The position numbers were made by a program, and so were the translations under genes. Shown here piece by piece: positions 2,021-55,452 of a stretch of 64,000 nt of DNA; position 1 is the stretch's first letter; every line of letters begins with the position of its first letter. The DNA comes from Nitrospirota bacterium. Lineage in GTDB: Bacteria > Nitrospirota > Thermodesulfovibrionia > Thermodesulfovibrionales > UBA1546. The DNA lies in assembly GCA_009773185.1 (NCBI GenBank), contig WPIF01000004.1, positions 1 through 64,000 of the forward strand, read 5' to 3'. Below the pieces are notes generated by a model. It made no database searches, was not told the DNA's origin, and was given only the letters and a program-made list of their open reading frames with translations.

Positions 2021-2452
2021 TTACCTACACTTTTTGCACAAGCCGTATATTTCCAATTTATGCCGCTGCGGAGCAAAATCATTTGCCTCGGCAAGCTTCT
2101 CCTGCAGCCTCTCAATCTTGTCATCATGAACTTCTATGAATTTACCGCATTTCATACAGATAAGGTGATCGTGATGCTCATGCCCGTATTTCTGCTCAAA
2201 TCTCGTTTTATGAGAGCCTATCTTTATCTCATCAGCCAGGCCGCATTCAGTCATTAATTTTAAATTGCGATGAACCGTGGCATAGCCTATCTCCTGATTT
2301 GTCTTTTTTACTGTGTTGTAAAGGTCATCTATGGTGATATGTTTGCCTGAAGCGAGAAACGCCTCAAGAATTGCCTCTCTCTGTTTGGTGTAACGCAATC
2401 CCTTTTCTTTTATATAGTTTAAAAAAATATCTTTTGCGTTGTTTCTGGCCAT
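2021..2452 (-). CDS. fur: Ferric uptake regulator (Fur family)
   Basis: A 143-aa Fur family repressor. The N-terminal winged helix includes RYTKQREAILEAFL and IGYATVHRNLKLM. The metal-binding dimerisation half includes GHEHHDHLICMKCGKFIEV and a closing CKKC. The HHDH cluster and both CxxC pairs are present, giving structural zinc and regulatory metal sites. It sits between two palindromes of Fur type, one before its own start and one before the feo operon. Autoregulation and iron control of that operon follow from this layout. Zur or PerR specificity cannot be excluded from sequence alone, but the feo neighbourhood favours Fur. Confidence 0.85.
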   Translation of the reverse strand: MARNNAKDIFLNYIKEKGLRYTKQREAILEAFLASGKHITIDDLYNTVKKTNQEIGYATVHRNLKLMTECGLADEIKIGSHKTRFEQKYGHEHHDHLICMKCGKFIEVHDDKIERLQEKLAEANDFAPQRHKLEIYGLCKKCR

Positions 2453-2467
2453 AAAGCCTCCAAATTA

Positions 2468-2490
2468 ATATTGATAATTATTATCAATAT
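2468..2490 (-). promoter_or_regulatory. Perfect palindromic Fur box before fur
   Basis: ATATTGATAA-TTA-TTATCAATAT is a perfect 23-bp palindrome of the Fur-box type, 16 bp before the fur start. It probably mediates autoregulation. Confidence 0.75.
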
Positions 2491-2619
2491 AGCAGAAGGC
2501 CTCAAGTTTGTCAAGCTTTTTTAAAAAATCTTTTTTTAGGGGATGGTCTGAATGCCGGAGGCTATAACAATAAACTTTCTCACGGTTGATTTTTGAGCAT
2601 GGATATTTTATGCTGTAAG

Positions 2620-3585
2620 ATGGATTTTGAGAAGATTTTTAAAAATTTCAGGAATAAAAAGATACTTGTAATCGGCGACCTTGTCCTTGACCGTTATATA
2701 TGGGGCAAGGTCAGCAGAATCTCGCCTGAGGCGCCGGTGCCGGTAGTTGAAGTCACAAAGGAAAATTTTCTTTTGGGAGGCGCATCCAATGTTGCGTATA
2801 ACATTGTGAGTCTCGAAGGCCATGCGACAGTTGTCGGAATAGCCGGCAGGGACAGGGCAGGAGATGTCTTAAGGAATCTTCTTGATGAAAAAGGCATAGG
2901 CTCTTGCCTGTTCGATGACCAGAGGCCTACGACAGTAAAGGCAAGGGTGATAGCGCATAATCAGCAGGTGGTGAGATTCGACAGAGAAGATAAAAAGAAG
3001 GTTTCAGGCAAGACGTATAAGTCCTTTATTGAATATATAAAGAAGGCTGTAAAAGAGCACGATGCAGTAATAATATCTGATTACAAAAAAGGCATTGTCT
3101 CTTCAGAGCTTGTTTTAGAGGTTGTGAAGGCGGCAAGGCCGAAGAATAAGTTTATCGCTGTTGATCCAAAAACAGGGCATTTCCACTGTTATAAGGGTGT
3201 CTCGCTGATAACGCCGAATCTTATCGAGGCGTCACACGGTTCAGGAATAGAGATAAAGGACGAAAAATCGCTTATTAAGGCAGGCAGAACCCTTCTGAAG
3301 AAACTTCCGTGCAAGGCGGTTCTTATAACACGCGGTGAAGAGGGTATGAGCCTTTTTGAAAAAGGGAATGTGATTCACATCCCGACTGTTGCAAGGCATG
3401 TATATGATGTTACTGGCGCAGGTGATACTGTTGTGGCTTCATTCACCCTGGCGCATGCATCAGGCGCAACAATGAAGGAATCAGCAATAATTGCAAATCA
3501 TGCAGCAGGTATTGTTGTGGGCGAGGTAGGCACTGCAGTGACAACTTCCGCAAAGATTCTGAAGTCGATCAGGAGTTCGAAATAG
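2620..3585 (+). CDS. rfaE1: D-glycero-beta-D-manno-heptose-7-phosphate kinase
   Basis: A PfkB-family sugar kinase of about 321 aa that phosphorylates heptose 7-phosphate in ADP-heptose synthesis for lipopolysaccharide core. The hallmark opening ILVIGDLVLDRYIWG followed by SRISPEAPVPVVEV is present, as are the second PfkB signature and catalytic Asp in DVTGAGDTVVASFTLA. Only the kinase half is present; the nucleotidyltransferase domain found in bifunctional HldE is absent. The start at 2620 gives the usual spacing to the GD motif; upstream TTG 2593 and ATG 2599 are also in frame. It is divergent from fur. Confidence 0.85.
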   Translation: MDFEKIFKNFRNKKILVIGDLVLDRYIWGKVSRISPEAPVPVVEVTKENFLLGGASNVAYNIVSLEGHATVVGIAGRDRAGDVLRNLLDEKGIGSCLFDDQRPTTVKARVIAHNQQVVRFDREDKKKVSGKTYKSFIEYIKKAVKEHDAVIISDYKKGIVSSELVLEVVKAARPKNKFIAVDPKTGHFHCYKGVSLITPNLIEASHGSGIEIKDEKSLIKAGRTLLKKLPCKAVLITRGEEGMSLFEKGNVIHIPTVARHVYDVTGAGDTVVASFTLAHASGATMKESAIIANHAAGIVVGEVGTAVTTSAKILKSIRSSK

Positions 3586-3970
3586 ATTTCAAGGCGTTCT
3601 GCAGCACTCTAAGGGTAAAAGGCTTATTTATAAAAATATTTGCCCCTGCATCAAGGAAATCTTTCTCATTGCATGTTCCGCTTATGCCGATGATCAGAAG
3701 CTTTAATCCTACATTTCTAATTTTTTTTGTCAGTTCTATGCCGTTAATCCCGGGCATAATATGGTCTGTTATAAGGGCATCATAAATATTTTTTTGCATT
3801 AATTCTATTGCATCTTTACCATTGCCGGCGCATTCCACATTATATCCGAGAATGCTTAAGAGTTCATACAGCGAATCTCTTATGAGATGGTCATCATCAA
3901 CAACTAATATTTTTCTGCACTCTTTACACACGGGTGTAGTATATTTACTACTTTCAGTTGTAATTGTCAA
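3569..3970 (-). CDS. Single-domain response regulator (CheY-like receiver)
   Basis: A 133-aa protein with one receiver domain. The acidic pocket is VVDDDH, the phosphoacceptor Asp is in ALITDHIMPGINGIEL, and the conserved Thr/Ser position and Lys are in IIGISGT and FINKPFT. There is no output domain, so it presumably signals through protein contacts, but no histidine kinase is adjacent. Its end overlaps the 3' end of the heptose kinase gene by 17 bp on the opposite strand. The cysteines in VCKECRKIL near the start are unusual for this family. Confidence 0.8.
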   Translation of the reverse strand: MTITTESSKYTTPVCKECRKILVVDDDHLIRDSLYELLSILGYNVECAGNGKDAIELMQKNIYDALITDHIMPGINGIELTKKIRNVGLKLLIIGISGTCNEKDFLDAGANIFINKPFTLRVLQNALKSISNS

Positions 3971-4021
3971 TATCCAACAACTGTGGGTTTATAGACTTTT
4001 CCTGGTTTAAAAAGCAAAATT

Positions 4022-4429
4022 ATGCATTGTATTATGAACAGAGAGACAGATAAAAGACATATTGGAAATCTCATAAGAATAGCGAGAAAAACCGTTGGCC
4101 TATCTCAGATGGAATTAGCGGAGAGGGTTGGTATCTCATATCAACAGATCCAAAAATATGAAAAAGGGGCAAGCGAGATCAGCATATCAAGGCTTTCGCA
4201 GATCGCTCATGCCCTGAATATGCCTGTAAACAGATTTATTTCAGATGATGAAAAAACGATGGTAGCAGAATCTGTTAGTTTATACGGCACTCTAAGTGAC
4301 GATGAGATTGAACTTCTCAAGCTCTTCAGAAAAATAAAAAACAAGAAGTTAAAAGATGGATTCTTGATTGCGGTAAAAGGCATTGCCGGAATGTCAGAGC
4401 AAAGAGATACAAAAAAGGCTAAATCCTGA
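4022..4429 (+). CDS. XRE-family helix-turn-helix regulator
   Basis: A 135-aa protein with a Cro/CI-type HTH: IGNLIRIARKTVGLSQMELA, then VGISYQQIQKYEKGASEISI, SRLSQIAHALNMPVNRFI. A short acidic-basic C-terminal extension follows. A second in-frame ATG at 4034 is an alternative start; neither has a strong ribosome site. It converges on rimI with an 11-bp overlap. The target genes are unknown. Confidence 0.75.
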   Translation: MHCIMNRETDKRHIGNLIRIARKTVGLSQMELAERVGISYQQIQKYEKGASEISISRLSQIAHALNMPVNRFISDDEKTMVAESVSLYGTLSDDEIELLKLFRKIKNKKLKDGFLIAVKGIAGMSEQRDTKKAKS

Positions 4430-4883
4430 GCATCTCGGAATCGAGTCGCAACGACATGACAACTGCATCTTCTTCAGGTTTATTATAATATTTTTTTCTG
4501 GTCCCGACTACGCTGAATCCAAAACCTTCATAGAGTTCCCTTGCAGCATTATTGGAGGCCCTTACCTCAAGATATAAAAATCTGCAATCAGTTTCCTTTA
4601 GTTCTTCAAGAATATTTTCTACAAGGGTTTTTGCAATTCCCTTCCTTCTGAAATCAGGATGGACTGCAAGGTTAAGAATATGCCCTTCATCCGCAACATA
4701 ATTTGCGCATATATATCCGATGACTCTTTTATCTATAAGTGCAACTCTTGCAATGGAGCGCTGCTTGTATATTTCATTAAAAAATAATATTTCCGACCAG
4801 GGGGTGGTGAAGGAGATATTTTCGATTCCCACTACATCGGGTAGGTCATGCTCCAGCAGTTCTCTTATGATGAGCCCTTCCAC
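4419..4883 (-). CDS. rimI: Ribosomal-protein alanine N-acetyltransferase
   Basis: A 154-aa GNAT acetyltransferase. The acetyl-CoA pyrophosphate-binding motif is HPDFRRKGIAKTLV, preceded by ILNLAV. The RimI-typical C-terminal LEVRASNNAARELYEGFGF and KKYYNKPEEDAVVM follow. RimI acetylates the N-terminal alanine of ribosomal protein S18. It overlaps the end of tsaB by 19 bp. The tsaB-rimI pairing is common across bacteria and supports both calls. Confidence 0.88.
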   Translation of the reverse strand: MEGLIIRELLEHDLPDVVGIENISFTTPWSEILFFNEIYKQRSIARVALIDKRVIGYICANYVADEGHILNLAVHPDFRRKGIAKTLVENILEELKETDCRFLYLEVRASNNAARELYEGFGFSVVGTRKKYYNKPEEDAVVMSLRLDSEMLRI

Positions 4884-49770: not shown

Positions 49771-51018
49771 ATGTTCAAAAAAACATATCTTGAAAACGGC
49801 ATGCCTGTGGTTATGGAGCAGATTAAGAATGTCCGCTCTGTTGCTTTAGGCATATGGGTCAGGGTTGGTTCAAGAAACGAGCCGGCTGAAAAGAACGGCA
49901 TATCTCATTTCCTCGAACATATGTTCTTCAAAGGAACACAGAAACGTTCTGCAAAGGATATAGCTGTTGACACTGATTCTATCGGCGGAGACCTCAATGC
50001 GTTCACATCAAGGGAGAGCACGACATTCTATATTAAGGTGCTGGACGAATACTTCGAAAAAGGCAATGAGCTTCTGGCCGATATATTCCTGCATTCTGCA
50101 TTTCCTGAAAACGACGTGGAGAAGGAAAAGGGGATTATCAAGGAAGAGATAAAGATGGTCGAGGATACTCCTGACGATTATATCCATGACCTCTTCAATC
50201 TTGATATATGGGGTGATGAAGGCATAGGACAGGGTGTTCTCGGGAAAAGGAGTACGATTAAAACATTCAAAAGAGAAGACCTCTTAAGCCATATAAAGAA
50301 ATATTACGGCACAAAAGATACGGTAATCGCCTGCGCTGGAAATTTCGAGTTCGATAAGCTTATTGATATGCTGAACCATAACTTCGGCTCTCTGAGGAGA
50401 GGTTCGGAGCCCGAGAAAGGAAAGTCGCCTGTATTTAATAACAGGTTAACAGTCCACAACAAGGAACTTTCAGAAGCTCATCTGTGCATCGGGGTAGAGG
50501 GGTTGCCCCAGGCAAGCGACGAAAGGTATGTGCTTTTTCTCCTTAATACAATCCTGGGCGCCGGCGTGAGTTCGAGGCTCTTTCAGGAGATAAGGGAGAA
50601 AAGAGGGCTTGCATATTCGATATATTCATACATATCTGCATATCTCGACACAGGCCTCTGGGCTGTCTACGCAGGCACAGGCAGGAAGAGGGTTGCTCAG
50701 GTGATGGAACTTATCGTTAAGGAGATGGGGGAACTGGCTGACAATATGACAGAGGCCGAGCTTGAACGGGCCAAGGCGCAGCTTAAGGGCAATCTCATCC
50801 TCGGCCTTGAATCAACGTCCAGCAGGATGCAGAATATAGCAAGGCAGGAAATATACTACGGAAAATATTTTTCTCCTTCTGAGTTGATAAAGGATATAGA
50901 TGCAGTAGATTTAAAGCGTGTGAAGGAACTCTCGAAAAGGCTTATGTCCAAAAACGCCTTTGCTGTTACAGTCTTTGGCCCTGTGAGCGAGGGGGATATT
51001 AAGGGGATAACGGGGTAA
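49771..51018 (+). CDS. M16-family zinc peptidase (mitochondrial processing peptidase-like)
   Basis: 415 aa. The inverted zinc motif is HFLEH in ISHFLEHMFFKG, with the distal Glu in KGIIKEEIKMVEDTPDDY. The second half contains LFLLNTILGAGVSSRLFQEIREKRGLAYS in the usual order. Such proteins act as processing or salvage peptidases. The last 19 residues (FAVTVFGPVSEGDIKGITG) recur in diverged form at 52070-52129, beyond a toxin pair. Confidence 0.9.
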   Translation: MFKKTYLENGMPVVMEQIKNVRSVALGIWVRVGSRNEPAEKNGISHFLEHMFFKGTQKRSAKDIAVDTDSIGGDLNAFTSRESTTFYIKVLDEYFEKGNELLADIFLHSAFPENDVEKEKGIIKEEIKMVEDTPDDYIHDLFNLDIWGDEGIGQGVLGKRSTIKTFKREDLLSHIKKYYGTKDTVIACAGNFEFDKLIDMLNHNFGSLRRGSEPEKGKSPVFNNRLTVHNKELSEAHLCIGVEGLPQASDERYVLFLLNTILGAGVSSRLFQEIREKRGLAYSIYSYISAYLDTGLWAVYAGTGRKRVAQVMELIVKEMGELADNMTEAELERAKAQLKGNLILGLESTSSRMQNIARQEIYYGKYFSPSELIKDIDAVDLKRVKELSKRLMSKNAFAVTVFGPVSEGDIKGITG

Positions 51019-51043
51019 CGTATTTGCATTTCAGGTTGGTAGC

Positions 51044-51292: not shown

Positions 51293-51577
51293 ATGCATCA
51301 GGTAGGAATAAAAGAGCTAAAAAACAGACTGACGTATTATCTTGGTCTCACCAAAAAAGGCGACAGTATAGTGGTTACGGACAGAGGGATGCCTGTGGCC
51401 GTGCTGCACAACCTTGATGCAGTTGAAGAAAACGCCGGCATAGAAGAAAGACTCGCGAGCCTGGCAAAACAGGGAAAGATAAGACTGCCCTTAATAAATG
51501 CCAGATTGAAACCGTTTAAGCCAATAAAAGTTAAGGGGAAACCGGTGTCTGAGACCATTATCGAGGAAAGAAGATGA
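51293..51577 (+). CDS. Phd/YefM-family antitoxin
   Basis: 94 aa. The Phd fold opens MHQVGIKELKNRLTYYLGL and contains GDSIVVTDRGMPVAVLH. The tail (LPLINARLKPFKPIKVKG) is the likely toxin-binding part. It overlaps the PIN gene by 4 bp, and its promoter holds a palindrome that it probably binds. The pair lies between the M16 gene and a second copy of the M16 3' end. Confidence 0.85.
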   Translation: MHQVGIKELKNRLTYYLGLTKKGDSIVVTDRGMPVAVLHNLDAVEENAGIEERLASLAKQGKIRLPLINARLKPFKPIKVKGKPVSETIIEERR

Positions 51578-52008
51578 TATATTTTGACACGAGCGCATTA
51601 GCCAAGAAATATATCATTGAGGCCGGTTCCGAAGGAATCGCCAGGCTTATGACCGGAAAAGCCATTATGGCAACGTCCAAATTAACCTACCCCGAAATGC
51701 TGTCTGCGCTTACAAGACGCAGCAGAGAAGGTGATATACCGCATTCGAAATTAAAAGAGTTGCTGACTGAATTTGAGACTGACTGGAAGTGCCTTCTCAT
51801 CATTGATTTTCAGGATGAACTTCTTGTCAGTATAAAGAGACTGATAGAAAAATATTATCTCAGGGCCGCAGACAGCATCCATCTCGCCTCTGCATTGTGG
51901 CTGAAACACTCAATAAAGGAAAACATTACTTTTGCGGCATCTGATACAAATCTCCTGAACGCAGCAAGGGCTGAAAAGTTATCCGTATTTAATCCGCAGG
52001 ACTCCTGA
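51574..52008 (+). CDS. vapC: VapC PIN-domain toxin
   Basis: 144 aa. It opens MIYFDTSALAKKYIIEAGSE, has LTYPEMLSALTRR, and ends with RAADSIHLASALWL and TFAASDTNLLNAARAE, giving the four acidic positions of the PIN site. It is likely an RNA-cutting toxin held by the upstream Phd protein. Confidence 0.87.
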   Translation: MIYFDTSALAKKYIIEAGSEGIARLMTGKAIMATSKLTYPEMLSALTRRSREGDIPHSKLKELLTEFETDWKCLLIIDFQDELLVSIKRLIEKYYLRAADSIHLASALWLKHSIKENITFAASDTNLLNAARAEKLSVFNPQDS

Positions 52009-52069
52009 TTCATAGCGTATTTGTCAGTAAAAATTTGCTTGACAGTGCCGTGTCCCTCTTTTGTTTCCC

Positions 52070-52129
52070 TTCGCTGTCACAGTCCTCGGCCCTCTGAATG
52101 AGGGGGATATAAAGGGGGTAGTGGGGTAA
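52070..52129 (+). pseudogene. Diverged second copy of the M16 peptidase 3' end
   Basis: The frame reads FAVTVLGPLNEGDIKGVVG then TAA, against FAVTVFGPVSEGDIKGITG at the end of the intact gene. The differences are partly silent, as between homologues from related strains. No further M16 sequence lies upstream. Its stop codon coincides with the edge of the putative cassette array. Confidence 0.75.
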
Positions 52130-52186
52130 CACGCGCGTGACGCGCCGCCTTCTGGCGCGTCGCTGTCGAGGCGCTGGTTGTTGCTC
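52125..52186 (-). other. Putative attC site at the end of the cassette array
   Basis: On the minus strand, CAACAACCAGCGCC, then GACGCGCC-AGAAGGC-GGCGCGTC (8-bp perfect stem) and CACGCGCGTGTTACCCC follow in attC order. The GTTACCC end lies on the stop codon of the M16 remnant. The core fit is imperfect, so this is a candidate only. Confidence 0.5.
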
Positions 52187-52197
52187 GATATGCTTCT

Positions 52198-53124
52198 CTA
52201 CTTTGACTTTACACTCAAGTCTGTTTTGTAAAGCCTTATTGCTTCTGAAATTGTTTTAACATTAATGAGATCTAGCGTTTTGTAGCCATCTGGCTTGCGG
52301 AAATAAATCATCATGGTTTGCGGTTTAGCTATCTTTTGCCCCGTTGTATCAGCTACGATGATGCTTATGTGAAGGTAATATCCATTTTGTTGGGGAATTA
52401 TGGATTCTACACAAGCTGGAGCCGTTCTTCCATCGCCACCTTCTCCACAGTCATTTACTTCCCACGTGGCTTTTCCGCCACACGTAAATGTATTTTCTAA
52501 CCACTGAGGAATAACTATATCGGGTAGTCCTTTCTCCAAGACCCCTGCTTTCGTTTTTTTAACGATATTTATATAGTCTGAATCCTGAATTTGGGCGATT
52601 GAATCTTCTTTATTAATGCATTTGCAGCCACCAAGTTTTTTACAGAAGTCCTTATATTGTTGATATGCTTGAAACCCATCGACTGCAGGCTCGGTATATA
52701 CTATCGCTTCTTTTTCGACATCGAATATAACATCATCAATGGCAATTCTGCCCCACCATATTCTAATGAAAAGCAGTTTTTCATTTATCCATTTGATGTC
52801 AGAAACACCAAATACGTCCGTAATTTTAATTACTGTAAGGTGATCTTTCTCGGCATAAATTGATATGGTTACGTCAGGTCTGAACCCTTCGTTTTTGTAA
52901 GAGTAACCCTTATTGGGAGAAACATTTTCGAACTTGACAGGCTTTTCAATTTTAACTTTTTCGATTTTGAAATTTTGTGGTAGTTTCTTCCAGTTGTCTA
53001 TATTGTGCACTATGCGTGCCTCGGACCAACAATCTGGCGGTAACCCCGGCCAATTTGTGGTAGCGGCCAAGACCACATCAGATATCGAAAGAAATGTCAT
53101 AAAAAGATAAAGTGTTTTGAACAT
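52198..53124 (-). CDS. Hypothetical secreted protein (cassette gene 1)
   Basis: 308 aa with a signal peptide (FKTLYLFMTFLSISDVVLA), then ATTNWPGLPPDCWSEARIVH. I recognise no family. Six cysteines are in DFCKKLGGCKCINK, TFTCGG, NDCGEGG and PACVES, suggesting disulfides. Several strands suggest a beta-rich periplasmic or extracellular protein. Codon use differs from the housekeeping genes around the array. It lies between two putative attC sites and has no promoter of its own visible. Confidence 0.6.
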   Translation of the reverse strand: MFKTLYLFMTFLSISDVVLAATTNWPGLPPDCWSEARIVHNIDNWKKLPQNFKIEKVKIEKPVKFENVSPNKGYSYKNEGFRPDVTISIYAEKDHLTVIKITDVFGVSDIKWINEKLLFIRIWWGRIAIDDVIFDVEKEAIVYTEPAVDGFQAYQQYKDFCKKLGGCKCINKEDSIAQIQDSDYINIVKKTKAGVLEKGLPDIVIPQWLENTFTCGGKATWEVNDCGEGGDGRTAPACVESIIPQQNGYYLHISIIVADTTGQKIAKPQTMMIYFRKPDGYKTLDLINVKTISEAIRLYKTDLSVKSK

Positions 53125-53133
53125 ATCACTTCC

Positions 53134-53192
53134 TGATAACGGTTCAAGCGTCAGCCGGTTTTTCGGCTCAACGCGGTGGGTAGCGGTTGCCT
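53134..53192 (-). other. Putative attC site between cassette genes 2 and 1
   Basis: Minus strand: GGCAACCGC, then GCGTTGAGCCG-AAAAA-CCGGCTGACGC and TTGAACCGTTATCA. GTTGAGCCG with a facing CGGCTGA and a GTTAT core is the usual attC look. The inner stem is short and slightly bulged. Confidence 0.55.
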
Positions 53193-53193
53193 C

Positions 53194-53721
53194 TCATTTA
53201 ACACCATCACATCCACCCTTCACTTCAGGTTCATTTCGAAAATGTTGATACTTATTGCTGACCCACCGCCATACCGGATGACAGAATCCCGGACCCCCAA
53301 ATTTAAGGTCTGGAAACCCTTTGTTCTTTGTCGATAGTTTCTCATACTCGATTGCAGGAAAGCCGAGGTTGTCGATGTATTTTCCCGATGTTCCTTTGAT
53401 GAGAAGAGAGACCGTTGCACCGGCCTGTCCAGAAGTACATGTATTCCCCCATGTGACGAATACTTCCTCGATGCCATCTCCGTTCAAATCGTCGATTTTG
53501 ACATTTGGAGACACATCGGCCCCACAAGTCTCATCAGTTATAAACTTCTTGTCCTTTGATAAATGAAAACCGAGCACCTTAAATATTTGCTGTTTCTCTG
53601 TTGTTGTCAGCTTGGAGGTTGTTCCTTGGAATAGCAGTTCGTATCCCTCGGTGGCCATCGCTGAACTGCTGAATATTGCCACCACAGCGAGTATGGTAAA
53701 AATCATTATGTGTTTAATCAT
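53194..53721 (-). CDS. Hypothetical secreted protein (cassette gene 2)
   Basis: 175 aa with a signal peptide (HIMIFTILAVVAIFSSSAMA). The segment VKIDDLNGDGIEEVFVTWGN resembles an FG-GAP or EF-hand-like DxNxDG calcium loop. Cysteines in DETCGAD, NTCTSG, GFCHPVW and GGCDG could form disulfides. No family is recognised. It lies within the putative cassette array in the same orientation as its neighbours. Confidence 0.6.
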   Translation of the reverse strand: MIKHIMIFTILAVVAIFSSSAMATEGYELLFQGTTSKLTTTEKQQIFKVLGFHLSKDKKFITDETCGADVSPNVKIDDLNGDGIEEVFVTWGNTCTSGQAGATVSLLIKGTSGKYIDNLGFPAIEYEKLSTKNKGFPDLKFGGPGFCHPVWRWVSNKYQHFRNEPEVKGGCDGVK

Positions 53722-53729
53722 TTTCTTCT

Positions 53730-53763
53730 CCGCTAACCGCCTCGACCCGAATGGTTATTCTTT
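53730..53763 (-). other. Degenerate attC-like sequence between cassette genes 3 and 2
   Basis: Minus strand AATAACCATTCGGGTCGAGG followed by CGGTTAGCGG gives a short TAACC...GGTTA inverted pair with a GTTAGC core. The internal stem typical of attC is missing. It may be a decayed site or chance. Confidence 0.3.
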
Positions 53764-53773
53764 TCTGCGTAAC

Positions 53774-54358
53774 CTATAGTTTGCCCCAAAAGAACGAGTC
53801 CTTACGACTCACGATATCAAGTGTATACAGACGCTCTTCATCTTTTGGTCCATTTGACAAAGAGTTAAGCTCCACAATATTCTGGCCAAAATCGAATGCC
53901 AATATAGTTATCTTCTTGTATGCTCGTGTGGAATATTTGTCAGCTTGAATACCAGCACATTTCTGTTTACTTGATAGATCGGCGAGAACCCTTCTTAGTG
54001 TGGTAAATAGTACGACGGTGTTCCGGCTACCGTAAGAGTGATTGCGTATGGTAATAGGCCCATTATCTAAGACCCCAATAACGACTTCATGAGGTGAATC
54101 GCCTGTTTGTCTTAGAATAATGGATTTCTTATCAGTTTCACATCTGATAACGCCTTTCCCGATCTTGTTTATTTCGGAATATAGCGCCTCGATTGCCTTG
54201 ATTGTTGCATAATCATGTTTCTGAATGATTTGAGGATATGTTTGGTCAGAAATGATTTGGTCAGAAGGTCGATATATGTCTTTCAAGTTCGCCGACATCG
54301 AACTTGTTGCGATTGTCGATACGAAAGCGAGTGCAATTATGAACCTCCTCAGCAGCAT
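53774..54358 (-). CDS. Hypothetical secreted protein (cassette gene 3)
   Basis: 194 aa with a signal peptide (RRFIIALAFVSTIATSSMSA). The rest has mixed helices and strands (KHDYATIKAIEALYSEINKI, SPHEVVIGVLDNGPITIRNH) and two cysteines. No family is recognised. It ends with a Lys-Leu tail. A putative attC lies just upstream (54379-54445), between it and the lead gene. Confidence 0.6.
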   Translation of the reverse strand: MLLRRFIIALAFVSTIATSSMSANLKDIYRPSDQIISDQTYPQIIQKHDYATIKAIEALYSEINKIGKGVIRCETDKKSIILRQTGDSPHEVVIGVLDNGPITIRNHSYGSRNTVVLFTTLRRVLADLSSKQKCAGIQADKYSTRAYKKITILAFDFGQNIVELNSLSNGPKDEERLYTLDIVSRKDSFFWGKL

Positions 54359-54378
54359 ATTATCTGCCTTCTCCTTTG

Positions 54379-54445
54379 CCGATAACGCGAAAGCTCATGG
54401 GGAGTGGGGCCGTATCCCGCGATTCCATGAAGTGCTTCGTTAAGC
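54379..54445 (-). other. Putative attC site between cassette genes 4 and 3
   Basis: The best site of the array. Minus strand: GCTTAAC (fits RYYYAAC), GAAGC, ACTTCATGG, a central GC-rich hairpin, CCATGAGCT, TTCGC, GTTATCG. The two half-sites pair with one extra T (ACTTCATGG against AGCTCATGG), as the extrahelical base of attC sites requires. The length is 67 nt. Confidence 0.65.
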
Positions 54446-54464
54446 TGAAAAATGTCTTTAATCT

Positions 54465-54845
54465 TCATTTTTTCAACCTGGACTTTAAAACAGCCTTATA
54501 AGGTAGCAACTCACCTTCTGTTGGCTCATACCATTGAATTTGTTTTGTTGTGCGATTTACTCTGAAGCGATCTACTACCGGTGCCGTATTAGGATCGCCG
54601 GGACACCTACCTCCGTGTTTTTCTCGAATTGCAAAATCGAAATAGTCCTTATTTTTTTCCTCAATAATGAAAGAAAGACAAGACATTGTGGTCCAACTGT
54701 TGTAAAGTTTATCTTTCTGAATTCTCAACTGCAAAATATTTAAAGCTTGCTCTTCAATAAGTTGGTTTCCGGCAGTCGCATCGGAATTAGGGCAAATAAT
54801 ACAGAGTGAAAAGCACAGAACAAAACATAATAAGTATATCCTCAT
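54465..54845 (-). CDS. Hypothetical secreted protein (cassette gene 4, lead)
   Basis: 126 aa with a signal peptide (IYLLCFVLCFSLCIICP). It contains LIEEQALNILQLRIQKDKLY, MSCLSFIIEEKNKDYFDFAI, REKHGGRCPGDPNTAPVVDR and FRVNRTTKQIQWYEPTEGEL. No family is named, but this style of small periplasmic protein is common in integron cassettes. The start at 54845 is chosen for the signal peptide; the longer open frame reaches 54962. It is preceded by a promoter (54893-54921) that could drive the array. Confidence 0.65.
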   Translation of the reverse strand: MRIYLLCFVLCFSLCIICPNSDATAGNQLIEEQALNILQLRIQKDKLYNSWTTMSCLSFIIEEKNKDYFDFAIREKHGGRCPGDPNTAPVVDRFRVNRTTKQIQWYEPTEGELLPYKAVLKSRLKK

Positions 54846-54863
54846 AGTATTTGCCTCTTTTAT

Positions 54864-54870
54864 GCTTAAC
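54864..54870 (-). other. attC/attI-like core at the start of the array
   Basis: Minus strand GTTAAGC matches GTTRRRY. It lies in a small inverted repeat (GCTTAATAACAGTGTTAAGC) between the promoter and gene 4, and may mark the upstream edge of the array. Confidence 0.35.
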
Positions 54871-54892
54871 ACTGTTATTAAGCGACAGAACA

Positions 54893-54921
54893 AGTGTAGC
54901 AAAAATAAGCTTTTTTGTGAA
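54893..54921 (-). promoter_or_regulatory. Promoter reading into the cassette array
   Basis: Minus strand TTCACA and TACACT are exactly 17 bp apart, about 48 bp before gene 4. It is the only convincing promoter found for the four minus-strand genes. Confidence 0.6.
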
Positions 54922-54966
54922 ATAAAATTGCCATAACCACTAAACCTGACCAATCCACTCAACTAA

Positions 54967-55005: not shown

Positions 55006-55452
55006 ATGCTGAGGTTATCTACAAAAGGGCAGTATGGCGTGCGGGCCATGTTCGAAATAGCCAATGGCTATCCTGATAAGCCGGTTACCATAAAAGAGAT
55101 ATCGGAAAAACAGGCTGTTTCCGTTGCTTACCTCGAACAGATACTCAATAAGCTCAGGAACGGAGGGCTTATAAAAAGCATTAAGGGGCCGGGCGGCGGC
55201 TACCTGCTGAATAAAAAACCCGAGAAAATAAGTATCAGTGCAATTCTTAAGGAGCTCGAAGGGCCTGTTGCCATCACATCCTGTCTGGACCCTAAGGAGG
55301 GCTGTGTCAGGGTGGACGGGTGTGTTACTTATATGCTCTGGAAATCTCTCGGAGAAAAGATAGAGGGGTTTCTGGATACGGTCTCTCTGAAGGACTTGAT
55401 TACAGGCGCCCTTTTAGAAAGAACGGCCGGGAAAATTAAGAAAAAGGCCTGA
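55006..55452 (+). CDS. iscR: Rrf2-family Fe-S sensing regulator IscR
   Basis: 148 aa. The winged helix has MLRLSTKGQYGVRAMFEIAN, KEISEKQAVSVAYLEQILNKL and IKSIKGPGGGYLL. The [2Fe-2S] ligand region CLDPKEGCVRVDGC has the three cysteines of IscR with spacing C-x6-C-x5-C. It senses cluster status and controls the isc genes that follow. A type-1 box covers its promoter. There is no leader or ribosome site, so the message is probably leaderless. Confidence 0.9.
   Translation: MLRLSTKGQYGVRAMFEIANGYPDKPVTIKEISEKQAVSVAYLEQILNKLRNGGLIKSIKGPGGGYLLNKKPEKISISAILKELEGPVAITSCLDPKEGCVRVDGCVTYMLWKSLGEKIEGFLDTVSLKDLITGALLERTAGKIKKKA

Follow-up and report, generated by a model that had tools for sequence, protein, structure and literature searches.

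How did four minus-strand genes for predicted exported proteins, each followed by an attC-like site, come to stand together on a chromosome with no integrase beside them? The locus lies in the window, i.e. the whole 64,000-nucleotide stretch that was analysed, which corresponds to positions 1-64000 of contig C27 of the host genome (G000). This assembly comprises 2.79 Mb in 44 contigs, with a completeness of 100% and a contamination of 0.5%. The initial annotation, made from the sequence alone, described the genes as an integrase-less cassette array resembling a CALIN, the term for a cluster of attC sites without an integron integrase (Cury 2016; IntegronFinder 2.0, PMC9024848), and proposed that the cassettes had become fixed away from an integron. 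The reading as an integrase-less cassette array was right. The second proposal was not quite right, as the array still lies behind a predicted attI site and a putative cassette promoter (Pc). It thus looks more like an integron minus its integrase than like cassettes inserted elsewhere.

The array and its surroundings

The array (Table 1) is flanked by a PhdYefM/PIN toxin–antitoxin pair (51293-52008) and by the Rrf2-iscS-iscU group, which begins at 55006. An Rfam scan of the window returned tRNAs only. The composition of the array region had been said to differ from its surroundings, but its GC content (0.41/0.44/0.39) falls within the range over the window (0.35-0.49).

The 3' end of an M16 peptidase gene is present twice, at 50957-51019 and at 52068-52130, where this copy of the upstream gene end joins the outer end of attC4 (52130). 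In a second genome of the comparison (G001, locus L033), similar M16 3'-end copies are found at 3143-3203 and 4607-4660, either side of an ATPase gene. The arrangement of these copies around the ATPase gene and at the end of the array suggests repeated insertions at this place.

Table 1. Features of the array and related sites elsewhere in the host genome.
Feature	Position	Strand	Description
Four-cassette array	52130-54870	minus	integrase-less, attI/Pc at head
attI/Pc element	54867..54937	minus	Pc, then predicted attI core TAATAACAGTG^TT, crossover G at 54870
Cassette 1 gene	54465..54845	minus	126 aa, predicted exported, family none
attC1	54380..54445	minus	R'' GCTTAAC, R' GTTATCG
Cassette 2 gene	53774..54358	minus	194 aa, predicted exported
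attC2, degenerate	53731..53765	minus	3' half alone recognisable: GGGTCGAGGCG-GTTAGCG
Cassette 3 gene	53194..53721	minus	175 aa, predicted exported
attC3	53134..53192	minus	R' GTTATCA; L''/L' = CGTTGAGCCG/CGGCTGACG
Cassette 4 gene	52198..53124	minus	308 aa, predicted exported
attC4	52124..52183	minus	array outer end; R' GTTACCC, crossover G at 52130
Further attI/Pc copies	C41:115654, C7:18540, C8:204, C15:112 (L191, L205, L209, L211)		without integrase
Scattered significant attC	C16:29432, C20:110016, C20:128579, C44:78563, C15:1112, C11:13777, C27:90271, C38:8471, C41:52880		

The cassette genes

The four genes had been annotated as belonging to no recognisable family and as all carrying signal peptides, and both statements held. 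A Pfam search with the four proteins gave zero matches, and the NCBIfam search gave nothing firm, with a sub-threshold match for gene 3 alone. A signal-peptide-like N terminus was recognised in all four cassette ORFs, against 13 of the 58 other ORFs in the window; these calls come from a simple heuristic on N termini, not from SignalP. A GTTA core lies 9-31 nt 5' of the start codon of every array gene, and 8 of 58 background ORFs have a GTTA within 35 nt upstream.

Homologs of the array genes are scarce, with 0-3 further genomes per gene in a phylum sample of 316 genomes. The cassette 1 homolog in G203 (66% identical) has an attI-like site on one side and an attC of 27.9 bits on the other. A homolog of the cassette 4 gene in G008 is 86% identical at the amino acid level, and the DNA match (83% identical) spans 52602 to 53141 and stops at the crossover. 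G226 has a further homolog of this gene, placed behind an attI-like site. A unit of gene plus attC with G^TT boundaries therefore recurs for cassette 4 (G008) and for the relative of cassette 1 (G203). Recurrence as a cassette is weaker for cassette 3, the homolog of which (G083, 43% identical) has a sub-threshold FG-GAP_3 match (E = 0.03), and cassette 2 is without a homolog in the 316 genomes. Stand-alone cassette genes of 168-178 aa match gene 4 over its residues 1-176 but contain no counterpart of its C-terminal ~130 aa; the cassette 4 gene is probably a fusion.

A PDB sequence search with gene 1 gave no match. AlphaFold gave low-confidence models (mean pLDDT 50 for gene 4 and 60 for gene 1), and the fold searches were uninformative. 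A beta-propeller hint for gene 4 was set aside.

The attC sites

Two covariance models were used to examine the candidate attC sites. R1 was built from 27 attC beside IntI in other genomes, collected by a rule-based scan for canonical attC beside integron integrases, and R2 from 52 sites, with the window sequence excluded. The collecting scan gave 59 matches versus 2 in ~700 kb of shuffled sequence. On the known-type array of G008, R1 yields scores of 35-53 bits, and it can be regarded as reasonably specific because ~24 of 60 relatives have no match at E ≤ 0.01. The R1 search of the window was run with filters off.

The initial annotation had placed attC-like sites at 52125, 53134, 53730 and 54379 and had suggested a covariance model as a check. 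Three of the four, all on the predicted strand and at the predicted positions, take ranks 1-3 of the 64 kb across the two models, each with a weak score. The best R2 match is attC4 (52127-52180, minus; 13.9 bits, E = 0.66), the best R1 match is attC3 (53134-53185, minus; 11.8 bits, E = 1.1), and attC1 is third (54381-54445; R2 9.9 bits, E = 7.1; R1 5.4 bits). At 53730, only the right half of a site was found, and the R2 score of attC2 (4.1 bits at 53731-53760) is not significant. No attC of the window is significant on its own score, the best E value for 64 kb being that of attC4. Two rule-based attC scans failed to tell the window sites from background, the second serving only to collect the canonical sites beside IntI, and single-strand DNA folding indicated ordinary stability. 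The case for these sites is made by their predicted strand and positions together with comparative evidence, not by single scores.

The site at 54379 has the GCTTAAC motif, the single extrahelical base and the GTTATC core that had been described; its L''/L' pair is TTCATGG/CCATGA. The nearest look-alike of attC1 is an attC adjoining IntI in another genome (L076:9643-9709). For attC4, a sequence family was found with members at other loci of the genome and the genus, the flanks of which are different each time. The member in G001 reaches 23.8 bits (E = 0.0028).

The predicted attI site and cassette promoter

The initial annotation missed a predicted attI at 54870-54880. The 71 bp element containing it is 79% identical over 82 bp (E ~1e-12) to a sequence in G030 (L046 1057-1138) that has the side of a minus-strand array on one flank and is directly upstream of a decayed intI, pieces of which lie at 1215-1848. 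Copies in G002 and G013 are 92-97% identical to the window element. Intact IntI genes of the same subtype are preceded by the core AACCAGTTATTARRCAG in G008, G047 and G055, and by a variant of it in G013. The attI sites fall into three variants (A, B and C), every one of which has a copy adjoining an IntI gene, intact or decayed; the window attI is variant A. For variant B, 16 copies were aligned on the core. Pairwise identity is 0.98 over the 10 nt before the crossover; after G^, the TT is invariant, followed by values of 0.42, 0.31 and then random ones. Such identity up to G^TT, with random sequence thereafter, is the pattern expected if different cassettes were inserted by attC x attI recombination. 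By homology and by the crossover boundary of its sister copies, the head of the array is a predicted attI site. The signature of these sites is a promoter followed by TAATAACnnG^TT.

A good promoter had been reported at 54893-54921. The pattern is present (TTCACA-N17-TACACT, 54921-54893), but on its own it is one of 8 Pc-type patterns in the region, with ~7 expected by chance. Support for a predicted Pc comes from its conservation, as the same pattern is kept in other variant A attI copies. The element breaks only 16 bp past the Pc -35 box; besides loss of an adjoining intI, arrival of an attI/Pc unit without intI would explain this break too.

Integrases and further sites in the host genome

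The window contains no integrase gene, as had been noted, and an intact integron integrase is absent from the four genomes of the genus, G000 included. Integron integrases above the curated cut-off were found in 17 of 61 relatives and in none of 14 control genomes. The search of the genome for intI, which had been recommended, returned Xer-type recombinases and a single C-terminal IntI relic; the relic is on C41 (GHKHVETTMVYTHVLRDMKNAPQSPLDSL), close to an attC scoring 29.4 bits. G000 has two full-length integrase-like genes, which were considered as IntI and rejected, their sequence and neighbours fitting XerC/XerD. Beside the five attI copies of G000, that of the array among them, no intI remnant was found even at lax thresholds. 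An unassembled IntI is conceivable, the genome being in 44 contigs. The IntI proteins of the order (L012, L010, L013, L014, L017, L018 and L020) are extended at the N terminus, with ~100-170 aa ahead of the usual IntI start.

The attI/Pc copies at C15 and C41 are followed by their gene and an attC. The first gene after attI is signal-peptide-like, by the same heuristic, at all five copies of G000 and at most copies elsewhere. The C7 copy retains DNA resembling an integrase promoter, which is the expectation after an intI deletion. In all, G000 has ~10 significant attC, mostly single and amid housekeeping genes; these scattered sites are possible natural off-target insertions.

Comparison with relatives

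The content of the interval between the PIN and Rrf2 genes varies within the genus. In G001, ~830 bp of different DNA lie between the two genes, and the right junction corresponds exactly to window position 54937. In G003, attI variant B adjoins Rrf2 (L037 4626-4682); in G002, variant C is found (L034 1-100) on a contig that runs from the PIN gene and ends before Rrf2. Three species of one genus thus have attI variants A, B and C upstream of the same Rrf2 gene, with no integrase gene. In G008, an M16 gene is followed by Rrf2 with ~190 bp between them.

The relative of cassette 4 in G008 is part of an array on the minus strand that has attC of 35-53 bits and lies upstream of an intact IntI; the homology of this relative to the window stops at most 2 bases from the crossover. 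Also in this genome (G008:C126, L038), modABC lies between two attC of 39.9 and 47.9 bits (2391-4733). These molybdate transporter genes look like one cassette, 2.3 kb long, within an array that has an intact IntI.

Origin of the array

The array is very probably a chromosomal integron remnant in a Nitrospirota genome of the Thermodesulfovibrionales type, consisting of attI, Pc and four cassettes, from which the integrase gene has been lost. An extended integrase of the G008 type (~490 aa) would have inserted circular cassettes one by one at attI, through attC x attI recombination at G^TT. The intI gene, divergent from just right of 54937, would later have been deleted, giving the array the Rrf2 upstream region as its new neighbour, and the window copy would have been trimmed just past the Pc -35 box, so that only the cassette promoter was retained. 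We infer this deletion, since no intI fragment is left beside the array. The array would now be frozen, with its attC drifting (half of attC2 is gone) and its cassettes fusing (cassette 4). The putative Pc probably still transcribes the genes for exported proteins. The order of events, the exported location and the functions of the proteins are likewise to be read as presumptive.

Three other explanations have to be weighed. The first is an ordinary operon for exported proteins, in which palindromic repeats between the genes merely happen to look like attC. It would be in keeping with the individually weak attC scores and the usual fold energies, but it is very improbable. The four-gene order is not conserved; relatives retain the flanks with other DNA in place of these genes, the genes are found singly beside attC or attI in unrelated places, and homology stops at crossover positions. 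The conserved synteny that the initial annotation had named as pointing to an operon was therefore not encountered. A somewhat better, though still improbable, explanation is that an integrase encoded elsewhere placed the cassettes singly at a secondary, attG-like site of the chromosome, which would result in a plain CALIN. Formation of CALINs by off-target insertion has been proposed (PMC8618304), attG is accepted as a third site type (PMC12901181), the outer end of attC4 is joined to a copy of the M16 gene end, and the mostly single attC between housekeeping genes of G000 are what off-target insertion gives. Single cassettes inserted in this way would not, however, bring the genuine attI and the putative Pc that head the array. 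For the solitary attC elsewhere in G000, this mechanism may well be right.

The third alternative assumes that Pc-attI units spread to several loci by being duplicated or relocated, whether or not they carried cassettes, and that one integrase loaded them in trans without ever adjoining the array. It is favoured by the number of integrase-less attI/Pc loci (five in G000 and at least five in G001), by the three attI variants next to or upstream of one Rrf2 gene in three species of the genus, and by the 92% identity of variant A between genera, compared with only 77-78% for their Rrf2-region DNA. Against it, an IntI, intact or decayed, adjoins a copy of every attI variant, the longer sequence kept on the integrase side at C7 and G001:C172 points to graded loss, and no mechanism that moves attI alone has been demonstrated. 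That the array arose in this manner is unlikely, but less so than off-target insertion. The wider proposal, in which the integron of this genus would consist of many short Pc-attI sites dispersed over the chromosome, each with one or a few cassettes for exported proteins and filled and refilled in trans by one transient integrase, is similarly doubtful. If it were true, platform and enzyme would be genetically separate.

An integron is normally identified through its integrase or through a cluster of strong attC. G000, which has no intact integrase, harbours at least five loci headed by attI/Pc and ~10 mostly solitary attC cassettes, some of which would escape the standard rules (at least two attC; an integrase for the complete class). 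With the attI signature, such loci can be found directly. Cassette loading in trans at several attI sites can now be tested, as can the idea that integrase loss fixes cassettes for exported proteins behind a ready-made promoter.

Comparison with known systems

Compared with a complete integron, the array has a predicted attI at its head, recognised by homology and by the crossover boundary of sister copies, and no intI beside it. It resembles a CALIN in having several cassettes with candidate attC on one strand and no integrase nearby, and differs in the attI and putative cassette promoter at its head and in attC that are each below significance. CALINs are common and are thought to result from integrase loss, off-target insertion and rearrangement (PMC9024848; PMC8618304). 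With IntegronFinder 2, they were reported in only one Nitrospira genome (PMC9024848).

The Xanthomonas integrons, which show progressive integrase loss (PMC12444791), are similar in that an array remains after loss of intI and CALINs occur at further chromosomal loci. Xanthomonas has one ancestral platform by ilvD, whereas several attI variants at several loci are found here. The unusual delta-attI gene cassettes of mobile integrons (PMC12901181) also present an attI sequence apart from its integrase gene; in these, a truncated attI replaces the attC at the cassette end, whereas the attI described here keeps its head position and its putative Pc.

An attI-led CALIN is on record from the Shewanella prophage M16-3 (PMC9892861), which likewise has a cassette array with its own attI and no adjoining integrase. 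Unlike G000, in which no intact integrase was found, this prophage also contains an intact integron with the same attI, and the attI/Pc loci of G000 number five and are scattered over the chromosome. Our search, mostly outside subscription journals, found no report of integrons that have orphan attI or more than one attI. CALINs are already known, as is one that is led by attI; the occurrence of so many integrase-less attI loci per genome appears to be new with respect to the literature searched.
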